A stretch of DNA of 60,948 nt, taken from contig VFZU01000020.1 in the NCBI GenBank assembly GCA_016870995.1, forward strand, positions 1-60,948, given 5' to 3'. The notes under the pieces are model-generated. The model was given only the letters and a program-made list of their open reading frames with translations, was not told the origin of the DNA and ran no database searches. Origin of the DNA: Acidobacteriota bacterium (GTDB taxonomy: Bacteria > Acidobacteriota > Terriglobia > Bryobacterales > Bryobacteraceae). Below, piece by piece: positions 46,353-54,703 of the stretch; position 1 is the stretch's first letter, and every line of letters begins with the position of its first letter. Position numbers and translations under genes: made by a program.

Positions 46353-46406
46353 GCGCAACTCACACCCGATCAAACACTCTCCGCGCTGTATCCCACAACA
46401 CGCCCC

Positions 46407-46645
46407 TCACAGCGCCCCCACAATCAGCCTCGTCATCTCACTCGTACTCAACTTCCCACCCAAATCCCCAGTTGCATTCGCAGCATCCGCCATTACAGTC
46501 TCAACCGCCTTGCGAACCTTGCCCGCAGCCTCTACACATTCAGGCTCTTCAAACGACTCCAGCATCATCGCGACCGACAGAATCGTCGTCACCGCGTTCG
46601 CCTTGCACTGCCCCGCGATATCCGGAGCCGATCCATGCGCTGGCT
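46407..46645 (-). pseudogene. Duplicated 3' fragment of the dehydrogenase gene at 51133-52161
   Basis: Reads in frame for about 75 codons as QPAHGSAPDIAGQ, then ILSVAMMLE and GKVRKAVETV, ending with the same terminus as the intact dehydrogenase, including its stop. By eye, nucleotide identity to 51133-51371 is about nine in ten. The homology stops abruptly near 46645, where unrelated sequence begins. It lacks the front 75 percent of the gene and cannot be functional. Confidence 0.85.
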
Positions 46646-46719
46646 GACGCCCGCCAGCGCAGTCATGCGCGCCGCCGTCAACGCTTTCCCCCTTTGCTGT
46701 TCCTGCCCAATACCCGTTC

Positions 46720-50999: not shown

Positions 51000-51132
51000 A
51001 GTCGAATGGACTCCAATTCTGGTTCTAAAGTTTAAACTCGACCGCCAGCAAGACTTGAAAAGCTAGCGCATTCGCGCGCGAAGCTGCGTAGGAATTTGGT
51101 CGCCATGCTTCTCAAGGCTTAAGAGAACTCCG

Positions 51133-52161
51133 TCAGAGCGCCCCCACAATCAACCCTGTCATCTCACTCGTACTCAACTTCCCACCCAAATCACCAGTCG
51201 CATTCGCAGCATCTGCCAGCACAGTCTCAACCGCCTTGCGAACCTTGCCCGCAGCCTCTACACATTCAGGCTCTCCAAACCACTCCAGCATCATCGCCAC
51301 CGACAAAATCGTCGCTACCGGGTTTGCCTTCCCCTGCCCCGCGATATCCGGAGCCGATCCATGCGCCGGTTGAAACACCGCCTGCGCATCCCCGATATCC
51401 GCCGAAGGAGCCATCCCCATCCCCCCGACCGTCGCCGCCGCCAGGTCCGACAAAATATCCCCAAACATATTCTCCGTCACCATCACGTCAAACGTATGGG
51501 GCCGCTGCACCAAGTAGAGCGCCATCGCATCCACATACACGCGCTCTGTCTCGACTTGCGGATACTCTTTCGCAATCTCGTCAAACACCTCACGAAAGAA
51601 CGCCATCGACGGCAGCACATTCGCCTTATCAATCAGCGTCAATTTCTTCCGCTGCTTCATCGCCAGCTCAAACGAAAATCGGAACAACCGCTCCGATCCC
51701 GCCCGCGTCACCAGCATCTCGTCCTTCACAAATTCTGTCGACTCCCGCCCCCGCAGCCTCGTCGAGAACAACCCTTCCGTCGACTCCCGAATCAGCACAT
51801 AGTCAATCTTCGGCGCCTTCAACGGCGAATGCGACGCGTTATACAAACGCGTCGGCCTCACACCCGCATAGAGCCCAAAGATCTCGCGAATATCGATCTG
51901 CGGTGCCATCTCTCGCCCATCCGCCCAACGCACATTCGGCATCCCCATCGCACCCAGCAGAATCGCATCGGCCTGCCTGCAGATCTCAATCGTCTCCTCC
52001 GGCAACGGGTTCCCGTTCTTCAAATATTCCCCGGCCCCACACGGCATCTCCAAGTACTCAAAGTCAATCTCAGACAGCGCCCGCAACACGGCCACACCCG
52101 CGTCCAACACCTCAGGCCCGATCCCGTCCCCTGGCAGCAATGCAATCTGTTTTTGAACCAT
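51133..52161 (-). CDS. Isocitrate/isopropylmalate dehydrogenase family protein
   Basis: 342 aa. NAD-dependent beta-decarboxylating dehydrogenase: opening LLPGDGIGPEV, substrate-binding arginines in GVRPTRLY and ESTEGLF, catalytic Tyr and Lys in ESTEGLFSTRLRG and LIDKANVLP, magnesium aspartates in TENMFGDILSD, and the adenine-binding HGSAPDIAGQ. It could act as 3-isopropylmalate, tartrate or a related dehydrogenase; motif reading does not decide. A copy of its last 75 codons is present at 46407. Confidence 0.88.
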   Translation of the reverse strand: MVQKQIALLPGDGIGPEVLDAGVAVLRALSEIDFEYLEMPCGAGEYLKNGNPLPEETIEICRQADAILLGAMGMPNVRWADGREMAPQIDIREIFGLYAGVRPTRLYNASHSPLKAPKIDYVLIRESTEGLFSTRLRGRESTEFVKDEMLVTRAGSERLFRFSFELAMKQRKKLTLIDKANVLPSMAFFREVFDEIAKEYPQVETERVYVDAMALYLVQRPHTFDVMVTENMFGDILSDLAAATVGGMGMAPSADIGDAQAVFQPAHGSAPDIAGQGKANPVATILSVAMMLEWFGEPECVEAAGKVRKAVETVLADAANATGDLGGKLSTSEMTGLIVGAL

Positions 52162-52201: not shown

Positions 52202-54703
52202 GTGAACCTCAATGACCTCCAGACGAAGGTCGTCAACCACTGGGACAAGCCCATCCTCGTCATGGCCCCGGTCGGCACTGGCAAAACGATGGCTCTCGCG
52301 GAACGCGCCGCCCGCGCCATCGACAACGGCATCAACCCCGAGCGCATGCTCTGCCTCAGCTTCACCAACCGCGCCGCCCGCGAAGTCGCAACGCGCCTGG
52401 CCAATCGCGTGCAGTGCTCCACCTTCCACGCCCTCTGCGCCCTGATCCTCCGCACAGAATCGAACGCCCTCGGCCTGCCCACCGACTTCATCATCTACGA
52501 CGAAGAGGACGCAACCGAAATCTGCGGGCGCCTCGCTAACCGGCACGAGATCGACATCCCAGGCCAATGGAATCGCGTTCGCTACGTCTTGTGGCAAGCG
52601 CTCTCCGAAGCCCGCCTTGCTAAGTACGAATCAAACCGCAAGCCCCGCGAAGTCTTCAATCAAACCCTCCAACAGAGCGGCCTCTGGCCCGCCTACAAAG
52701 CTCCAGACCTCAACTTCCCCGCCCTCCTGCAAGACTACGTCGCCATGCTCCGCGACTCCCACGCCGTCGACTTCACCGACCTCATCCTCGGCGTCGTCAC
52801 ACTCTTTGAAGAGAACCAGGAACGCCTCAACTGGTGGCGCTCCCGCTACGATTGGATCCAGGTCGACGAAGTCCAGGACACCTCCCGGGCGGAATACCGC
52901 ATCCTCCACCTCCTCACCCAAAACCATCACCAGCTCAGCTTCTTCGGCGACGTTGATCAAACCATCTACGAGTGGCGCGGCTCTGCCCCCTACGAAATCC
53001 TCGAACACTACAAGCGCGAATACAAACCCACCGTCGTTCACTTCGAAGAGAATTTCCGTTCCACCAAACGCATCCTTGAGGCCTGCGAACGCTTCATCGT
53101 TTCGCTGCCTCTAGCTCTCACCAAACGCATCGTCCCCAAAGTTGCCCGCGAAGGATCTCCCGTGCTCATCAAACCATTCGTCACTGCTCGAGAAGAATAC
53201 GATTGGGTCGCCACAGAAATCCTCACCGCTCATGACCGCGACAAAAAGCACTGGAGAGACTACGCCATCCTGGTCCGCACCAACTTCACCGCCCGCGACG
53301 TCTCCGAAGCCCTCGAGCGTTCCGGCGTCCCTCACGTCCGCGTCGAAGAAGAAAAGTTCTTCCAACGCGCCGAGATCAAGGCCGCGATCGCTCACCTTCG
53401 AATTCTTCGAAACACCCAGGAATCGAACGCACTCCACCGCTTTCTCCAGGTCCCGCCCAAAGGTATCGGCGAAGCCACGCTCGACAAGATCAGCGGCCTC
53501 CCCAAAGAAGTTGGCCTTCGCCTCGGCGATCTCCTCTTGCCAGCCACTCACGAGCATGGCGACCCATTCGCGCTCCTCAACTCACACCCCACCGTGATAG
53601 TCGATACCGAAACAACCGGCCTCGACACCAACCTCGATGAAGTCGTCGAATTAGCCGCCTTAAAAGGCGATGAAGAGTTTTACCGCATCCTCAAACCAAC
53701 ACGTCCTGAAACCTGGGCCCGCCTCGAGCAAGCCGCCAAGATCCACGGCGTCACCAGAGAACGCATCGAAGCCGAAGGCATCCCCGCCGAACAGGCCTTC
53801 GAGGAATTCCGCCAATTCGTTCAGGGCTGCGTCGTGGTCGGCCACAATCTCGAAGCTTACGATTGGCCTCTCATCCTCAACCAGTCCCAAATCACATTCG
53901 ACATCGCTGGCACTGCCGACACGCTTGAGATCAGCCGCCGCATGCTCAAGCTCACGCGCTACAGGCTCTCAAGCGTCGTCGAAGCCCTCAAGCTTCCTCA
54001 ACGCGAAGCCCATCGCGCCATGGACGACGTTCGTATGACCGCCGACGTCCTCGAACAACTCAAGCTCCTCCTCAATACTCACCAGCAAACAAGACGCGAG
54101 GCGGTCGCGCAAGTCGGCAAACGCTTCGTCGAACTCGCCGCTCAACTCGAAGACTGGCGCAAGCGCGCCCGCTCCCAGTCTCCAGTCGAATCTCTCGACA
54201 TGGTCCTTTACGAAGGCCTCCTTAAAGAGCACTTCGGCCGCGAGACCAATGGCGAAGAACGCCTGTCGAATCTCGACGAACTCCGCCGTATCATCTCGAA
54301 CATGACCACACTCGATGAAGCCCTCGAAGTAGCTTCCTTGGGCCTCGACCTTGAGCGCCAACTCGGCGACGAAGATCGCGTCCGCATCCTCACCGTGCAT
54401 CAATCGAAAGGCCTCGAATTCGACACCGTATTCGTCGTCAAAGCTGTCGAAGGCGAGTTCCCCTCCTGGCGCAGCATCAAAGACGGCAAGCTCGACGAAG
54501 AACACCGCCTCTTCTACGTCGCCGTCAGCCGCGCACGCGAAAACCTCTACGTCTCCTACCAGCAGCGCGATTCCCGAGGCAAAGGCCAAACGCCCAGCCG
54601 CTACCTCAAGTCGCTGCGCAACCAAAACCAAGAGCTGAGCCAAAACAAAGCGGCCTCCCCGCATCAGGGAGGCCGCTCAAACAAACACTGCAGCAACAGC
54701 TAA
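52202..54703 (+). CDS. UvrD/PcrA-type helicase with an inserted DEDDh exonuclease domain
   Basis: 833 aa, starting with GTG at 52202. Helicase motifs in order: Walker A APVGTGKT (22-29), DEVQD (222-226), GDVDQTIYEWRG, then later TVHQSKGLEF (about 730) and VAVSRARENLYV. Between the motif-IV region ending near PPKGIGE and motif V sits a complete DnaQ-like exonuclease at about residues 463-625: Asp468 and Glu470 in DTET, Asp554 in GHNLEAYDW, His604 and Asp609 in HRAMDDVR. So a 3'-5' exonuclease is inserted in the 2B area. Likely unwinds DNA and trims one strand. The 3' end contains a terminator of the next gene. Confidence 0.88.
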   Translation: MNLNDLQTKVVNHWDKPILVMAPVGTGKTMALAERAARAIDNGINPERMLCLSFTNRAAREVATRLANRVQCSTFHALCALILRTESNALGLPTDFIIYDEEDATEICGRLANRHEIDIPGQWNRVRYVLWQALSEARLAKYESNRKPREVFNQTLQQSGLWPAYKAPDLNFPALLQDYVAMLRDSHAVDFTDLILGVVTLFEENQERLNWWRSRYDWIQVDEVQDTSRAEYRILHLLTQNHHQLSFFGDVDQTIYEWRGSAPYEILEHYKREYKPTVVHFEENFRSTKRILEACERFIVSLPLALTKRIVPKVAREGSPVLIKPFVTAREEYDWVATEILTAHDRDKKHWRDYAILVRTNFTARDVSEALERSGVPHVRVEEEKFFQRAEIKAAIAHLRILRNTQESNALHRFLQVPPKGIGEATLDKISGLPKEVGLRLGDLLLPATHEHGDPFALLNSHPTVIVDTETTGLDTNLDEVVELAALKGDEEFYRILKPTRPETWARLEQAAKIHGVTRERIEAEGIPAEQAFEEFRQFVQGCVVVGHNLEAYDWPLILNQSQITFDIAGTADTLEISRRMLKLTRYRLSSVVEALKLPQREAHRAMDDVRMTADVLEQLKLLLNTHQQTRREAVAQVGKRFVELAAQLEDWRKRARSQSPVESLDMVLYEGLLKEHFGRETNGEERLSNLDELRRIISNMTTLDEALEVASLGLDLERQLGDEDRVRILTVHQSKGLEFDTVFVVKAVEGEFPSWRSIKDGKLDEEHRLFYVAVSRARENLYVSYQQRDSRGKGQTPSRYLKSLRNQNQELSQNKAASPHQGGRSNKHCSNS
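54641..54677 (-). terminator. Rho-independent terminator of the Oar-like gene, inside the helicase coding end
   Basis: An 11-bp perfect GC-rich stem: AGCGGCCTCCC at 54649-54659 with GGGAGGCCGCT at 54667-54677, loop 7 nt. On the minus strand the stem is followed by TTGTTTTG, giving a termination signal 22 bp after the stop of the 54700-57855 gene. The same bases encode residues near the C-terminus of the plus-strand helicase. Confidence 0.75.

Follow-up and report, generated by a model that had tools for sequence, protein, structure and literature searches.

The open reading frame at 52202-54703 (+) of the window (the whole stretch of 60,948 nucleotides analysed here, from a member of the Bryobacteraceae, Acidobacteriota) encodes a UvrD/PcrA-like helicase of 833 aa, with GTG as start codon and a DEDDh exonuclease inserted into the helicase fold. 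The insertion is confirmed as real and lies far beyond chance. Such proteins are currently annotated as "3'-5' exonuclease" or "ATP-dependent helicase", and under these generic names an enzyme type present in several distant bacterial groups has been little noticed. The combination of unwinding and 3'-5' trimming in one chain can fairly be inferred from the domains, and at a probability of about 0.55 the protein is read here as a self-contained helicase-exonuclease that would unwind and trim DNA in repair or at stalled 3' ends. The features referred to below are the following.

52202..54703 (+): open reading frame, helicase with inserted exonuclease, GTG start, 833 aa (frame and Pfam)
52208..53014 (+): N-terminal motor, UvrD-helicase, residues 3-271, GxGKT at 25-29 and DEVQD at 222-226 (Pfam and residue conservation)
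53036..54565 (+): UvrD_C, residues 279-788, split by the exonuclease (Pfam PF13361)
53357..53500 (+): 2B arm part 1, residues ~386-433, with the PPKGIG motif (PcrA 1pjr and family alignments)
53585..54067 (+): predicted inserted DEDDh 3'-5' exonuclease, residues ~462-622 (Pfam, 2p1j match, conserved residues)
54137..54346 (+): 2B arm part 2, residues ~646-715, helical (PcrA alignment from 463 on; model helices 628-713)
54347..54601 (+): motifs V-VI, residues ~716-800 (sequence and family alignment)
54620..54700 (+): C-terminal tail, probable recent read-through, residues ~807-833 (stops of relatives; pLDDT <50)
51133..52161 (-): isocitrate/isopropylmalate dehydrogenase, divergent neighbour (Pfam scan)

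Domain architecture and insertion site

Three Pfam domains are recognised: (i) UvrD-helicase (PF00580, residues 3-271, E 1.2e-54), (ii) UvrD_C (PF13361, residues 279-788, E 1.4e-82) and, nested within the latter, (iii) RNase_T (PF00929, residues 465-617, E 2e-18), matched over profile positions 1-164 of 164. An initial annotation made from the sequence had claimed a complete helicase core with all UvrD motifs as well as a full DEDDh set (Asp468, Glu470, Asp554, His604 and Asp609). Both claims were borne out: the protein has DEVQD, Arg286, Lys736 (the lysine of motif V) and Arg777, and the five exonuclease residues stand at the given positions inside the full-length RNase_T match, identifying the segment as DEDDh-type. 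Assignment to the SF1A UvrD/PcrA-like helicases is based on the helicase motifs together with the UvrD_N and UvrD_C domains (Pfam, alignment) and on a 2B accessory arm recognised by PcrA alignment on both sides of the insert and by model helices. The best NCBIfam helicase model is pcrA with two matched stretches (the better one covering 2-439), and PolC/DnaQ models match residues 464-631. None among the best 25 of 43 NCBIfam models reaches its cut-off, and the scores for the equivalogs pcrA, rep and uvrD are 378.1 of 911.2, 329.7 of 951.5 and 296.6 of 1144.5 bits, respectively. For the exonuclease alone, the nearest solved chain in a sequence search is the PolC exonuclease 2p1j (E 7.4e-20). 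G+C content is uniform across the parts of the gene (0.58-0.59; third positions 0.70-0.77). A recent fusion or an assembly artefact is ruled out by this uniformity and by the same architecture in independent genomes and phyla.

In a phmmer search against solved structures, residues 2-433 align to PcrA 11-433 and residues 644-815 to PcrA 463-651 (1pjr), such that ~30 residues of PcrA 2B are exchanged for ~210 in the window protein; the 2B arm was delimited here by the domain limits of PcrA. The stretch between positions 433 and 645 of P0001 comprises 211-233 residues in members of the family versus 39-58 in 12 of 13 chosen non-members, the exception (L131) having 153 residues. The 2B part upstream of the insert carries the PPKGIG motif, which aligns to the GIG of PcrA and is kept in most Acidobacteriota members, but is absent from the Bacteroidales and Acetoanaerobium rows. 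The insert follows just after this GIG-type motif, which touches duplex DNA in PcrA and UvrD.

An AlphaFold2 model from a 17-row alignment (mean pLDDT 86.2, pTM 0.81) places strands and helices fitting an exonuclease at 464-626, between helices 390-461 and 628-719 of the 2B arm. The location of the insert within 2B, proposed from the sequence, is thus found alike in PcrA alignment, family alignment and model. As to whether the exonuclease replaces or extends 2B, which had been left to structure prediction, 2B helices flank residues 464-626 in the model; judging from these 2B-like flanks and the 211-233 versus 39-58 residues, the exonuclease is an extension of 2B rather than a replacement. UvrD and PcrA rank first in a Foldseek search with the window model. 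Target TM reaches 0.79 for 4c2t_C and 0.78 for 3pjr_A, compared with 0.65 for 1pjr and 0.63 for 3lfu; given the open or closed states of these single PDB entries, 2B seems to adopt a closed-like position in the model. A model of a Bacteroidota member (pLDDT 87.9, pTM 0.85) displays a similar order of elements, again with UvrD and PcrA as top matches.

All six Bryobacter relatives examined stop at most ~4 residues past an SRYL-x2-L motif. The window copy has no stop after this motif and continues for another 27 residues (807-833). Because of the earlier stops and a pLDDT below 50 at residues 810-833, these last residues probably represent a recent read-through tail. An inverted repeat (54648-54678) lies within the tail, and in L007, L008 and L018 similar sequence follows the stop; a scan for terminator-like sites yielded 5 versus 3.9 expected in the stretch and lends weak support to 54648-54678 as such a site.

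Conservation, distribution and origin

The nested domain order is present in all ten relatives picked for Pfam analysis, which belong to the Acidobacteriota, the Bacteroidota and Acetoanaerobium noterae (Clostridia, one record). Of the 13 loci obtained by a scan of genome contigs, 12 (L017-L028) possess this architecture, L029 being the exception. In the last alignment of 59 member rows, some of which represent the same gene as near-copies or in truncated form, D468, E470, D554, H604 and D609 as well as the DE of motif II, R286, K736 and R777 are kept in 59/59 rows; Walker A is kept in 58, the remaining row (L203) running off its contig. Motif II reads DEVQD in 27 of 32 distinct members, and DEYQD is the commonest form in non-members. 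Since five viral helicases that lack the exonuclease have DEVQD as well, it is not diagnostic of exonuclease-bearing helicases. Pairwise dN/dS with L007, L008 and L009 is 0.19-0.24 for the exonuclease, 0.24-0.29 for the N-terminal motor and 0.12-0.14 for the 2B flanks (comparisons with L010, L011 and L012 being wholly or partly saturated). Judged by these ratios, the exonuclease is under purifying selection. In the comparison with L010, identity is 66 % for the exonuclease, lower than the 81 % of the motor.

A survey of 61 genomes gave 11 matches: the own genome, six of seven genus mates, four of 29 family members outside the genus and none of 24 genomes beyond. Across the host's family (Bryobacteraceae), the gene was found in 29/237 genomes, one match (G1027) being cut by a contig end, and in 7/76 genera, including 7/8 genomes of the own genus. 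The own-genus genome without the gene is a 620-contig draft of 94 % completeness, and due to this absence the gene looks dispensable. Further matches were obtained in 3/396 genomes of an Acidobacteriota sample (including the own genome; single-protein query, E 1e-80), 6/395 of a Bacteroidota sample (including the centre genome) and 18/251 in the family of a Hoylesella genome (including the centre), and the architecture also occurs in two other Acidobacteriota families. The Spirochaetota, surveyed without a positive control, yielded 0/198. The large surveys scored the top 2-4 candidates per genome, and their counts are lower bounds. The gene is therefore stable inside some genera and patchy between genera. 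It is no speciality of the Bryobacterales, and the idea of a lineage-specific enzyme of this order had to be abandoned in view of its 29/237 family genomes and its occurrence in other Acidobacteriota, the Clostridia record and many Bacteroidota. Apart from this gene, the own genome has an 884-aa frame coding for another UvrD/PcrA-like helicase.

In a tree based on motor columns (all of 2B removed; four long-branch non-member rows left out), 26 exonuclease-bearing proteins form one group versus 28 others with support of 100/100. A core tree without the insert columns likewise separates the 26 from 32 others (SH-aLRT 96); of the 95 non-redundant rows available, it includes every one of the 26 members and 32 of the 69 non-members, 58 in total. 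The exonuclease-only tree (25 inserted, 9 free) gives no resolution, one clade being compatible (AU p 0.633). Phage and Acidobacteriota PcrA types made up most of the helicases used for comparison, with Gabija and RecB-type bacterial sets left out. Since the motor columns alone already yield one group, the trees, unrooted for the insertion as they are, suggest one old insertion followed by patchy spread. Independent insertions per lineage are disfavoured, as the motor-only tree forms one group and the core tree agrees. With regard to a viral origin, among 80 loci listed in a viral scan only the IMG/VR contig L042 carries the insert. A motif pattern scan returned four stretches, i.e., L127 (identical with the L042 contig), L126 and L129 (helicases without exonuclease) and L128 (no helicase match); a search of the phage collection with the L042 protein gave no match.

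Genomic neighbourhoods and possible function

The gene starts 41 bases from the divergent dehydrogenase gene and its end abuts an outer membrane protein gene. The four nearest ORFs of the window encode this isocitrate/isopropylmalate dehydrogenase, two outer membrane (TonB-type) proteins and a small protein without Pfam match, in agreement with the earlier remark that no obvious partner stands next to the gene. The dehydrogenase neighbour is shared by four Bryobacter loci (L018-L021), and G006 of the same genus carries the gene at a different site, next to an enolase-like enzyme (L170). The dehydrogenase is not a functional partner. Neighbours at other loci are mostly unrelated (TilS-like, SPFH, GDSL lipase, PFOR, amidase, radical SAM, EamA transporter, RNase Y), and no conserved repair-gene neighbour was found among the loci inspected. 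Because neighbours mostly differ between lineages, the enzyme probably acts alone.

Two side observations concern these surroundings. On either side of a segment that contains a small ORF and a gene for an outer membrane protein lies a 259-bp direct repeat (46404-46661 and 51130-51388, 90 % identical), which holds the end of the dehydrogenase gene. L018 and L019 lack this segment; there, the dehydrogenase gene comes after the gene that matches the window up to 45.6 kb. The segment looks inserted or duplicated in the genome of the window. Genes for PFOR and an M20 peptidase lie near the helicase-exonuclease gene in L026-L028 (Prevotellaceae; both Pfam-confirmed in L026) and in L030 (Acetoanaerobium), this likeness across two phyla reflecting either a shared neighbourhood or a coincidence of common genes.

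A few copies lie in defence-like surroundings. A cluster in which genes for kinase, VWA, PP2C, FGE-sulfatase-like and unknown proteins accompany the helicase-exonuclease recurs on a Prevotella plasmid (L032:1-18577) and the IMG/VR contig (L042:1-10613); FtsK follows the helicase-exonuclease in L032 and had no match in L042. In an excerpt of PMC11090510, the kinase/VWA/PP2C trio is described as TerY-P and tied to restriction and anti-phage systems, and the L032/L042 cluster is possibly an uncharacterised defence system. On a Chryseobacterium plasmid (L034, 1-10526), the gene follows those for a methyltransferase, a type III restriction subunit and a TmtA-like protein, the latter being a 1612-aa Sacsin/SF1 helicase protein that scores as PADLOC TmtA. 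At L022, a SNF2/ResIII-type helicase is encoded ~1.3 kb downstream.

For the proposed unwinding and trimming, the UvrD/PcrA-type motor would, as expected from its family, move 3'-5' on one strand, entering at a nick, gap or 3' overhang before unwinding. The DEDDh exonuclease would ride in the mobile 2B arm, just past the GIG-type motif, and trim the exposed 3' end; rotation of the arm may control the activity, with the DNA presumably led to the exonuclease site. In E. coli strand excision, UvrD works together with 3'-5' exonucleases that are proteins of their own, among them ExoI and ExoX; here one chain would do this job. The gene would serve as an accessory beside the other UvrD/PcrA-like helicase, in DNA repair or the cleaning of stalled 3' ends, and some Bacteroidota have apparently enlisted the enzyme in clusters resembling defence systems.

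This repair reading is supported by domain order, kept residues, selection, models and the single group in the trees, by the separate UvrD/PcrA-like helicase of the genome and the same dehydrogenase-side site in four Bryobacter loci, and by the precedent of SaDinG, an SF2 helicase with fused exonuclease, both activities of which are required in crosslink repair and resistance of S. aureus according to an excerpt of PMC12345164. It is weakened by the patchy distribution, the dispensable look and the other site in G006, by the lower conservation of the exonuclease than of the motor versus L010, and by the missing repair neighbour among the loci inspected. In some lineages, a defence role would account for patchiness and defence-like clusters no less well. 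An anti-phage or anti-plasmid effector degrading invading DNA, alone or in clusters, with the Bryobacter copies as stand-alone defence genes, is possible though not probable: the kinase-VWA-PP2C cluster, the position in L034 behind restriction subunit and TmtA-like protein, the helicase near L022 and Gabija GajB profile scores of up to 256 bits point in this direction, but the window and most inspected loci have metabolic or otherwise unrelated neighbours, the site is the same in four Bryobacter loci, no Gabija-type partner is found among the nearest window ORFs, and the PADLOC profile RTasHel is unspecific, matching E. coli and B. subtilis as well. Tentatively, one may speculate that these helicase-exonucleases form one old family of single origin, in which the position of the swivelling arm switches between unwinding and 3'-trimming and which moved between phyla and was repeatedly recruited as an effector to defence clusters of the kinase/VWA/PP2C or restriction-like kind.

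Two further readings concern the exonuclease itself. A mere regulatory or DNA-gripping module of 2B, with no relevant nuclease activity, would fit the known regulatory nature of this arm, the orientation of which is coupled to unwinding in Rep and UvrD and the state of which sets helicase activity (as given in an excerpt of PMC10557133); the conservation of all five catalytic residues in 59/59 rows across phyla argues for catalysis and renders such a module unlikely. Most improbable is that the inserted exonuclease stands in for a missing proofreader of the replicative polymerase. In its favour, 159 of 237 family genomes have no RNase_T at E 0.001, and the inserted copy is the only RNase_T in 11 of 29 carriers, including G006 (4 contigs); in G006 and G011, none besides the inserted copy appears even at E 1. 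However, a second RNase_T match is present in 18/29 carriers versus any such match in 49/208 non-carriers (Fisher p 8e-5, ignoring kinship), which disfavours replacement of a lost DnaQ. Moreover, G001 of the same genus shows neither an inserted nor another RNase_T, and many bacteria use the PHP domain of DnaE as proofreader. Returning to the helicase-exonuclease for repair, its domain arrangement is of wider interest: rotation of 2B decides on unwinding in UvrD, Rep and PcrA, and a nuclease placed there offers a natural test of the arm's reach and control.

Comparison with known systems

With the SF1A helicases PcrA, UvrD and Rep, the window protein has all checked motifs in common (best structures 4c2t_C and 3pjr_A), but differs by ~175 additional 2B residues constituting the exonuclease, by a motif II that mostly reads DEVQD in its family and by scores below the equivalog cut-offs. 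A complete RNase_T domain is shared with PolC/DnaQ-type DEDDh exonucleases, which are free or part of a polymerase, whereas that of the window protein sits in the arm of a helicase. No open-licence paper describing a UvrD-type helicase with inserted DEDDh exonuclease was found; domain databases may list the architecture uncommented.

Gabija GajB is a UvrD-like helicase (best profile match 256 bits, best stretch only 2-408); a scan of the four ORFs nearest to the gene in the window found no GajA-like product. The best PADLOC match, RTasHel (PDLC03802), was rejected as unspecific, since at E 1e-95 it is found in 7/14 control genomes (E. coli and B. subtilis among them) as well as in 96/149 Acidobacteriota genomes; a reverse transcriptase, as called for by the RTasHel (DRT) rule, is absent from the four nearest ORFs. 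This profile would over-call without the neighbour rule.

AddAB, RecBCD and AdnAB, recovered as structural matches, also join a UvrD-like motor to a nuclease. They are multi-subunit enzymes with a C-terminal nuclease of the RecB type. MrfAB of B. subtilis consists of two proteins and has an SF2 helicase, unlike the single chain of the window. It resembles the latter in pairing a helicase with a DEDDh exonuclease in repair (excerpt of PMC11194089). ExoDinG of S. aureus, according to PMC12345164, likewise combines a bacterial helicase and a 3'-5' exonuclease in one chain. ExoDinG is an SF2 helicase of 5'-3' polarity with an N-terminal, not inserted, exonuclease (portions of PMC12345164 and PMC11981726), whereas the window protein is a UvrD-type SF1 helicase with an internal exonuclease and thus no ExoDinG. 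The present family adds an SF1 counterpart from at least three phyla to this recently characterised SF2 helicase-exonuclease.
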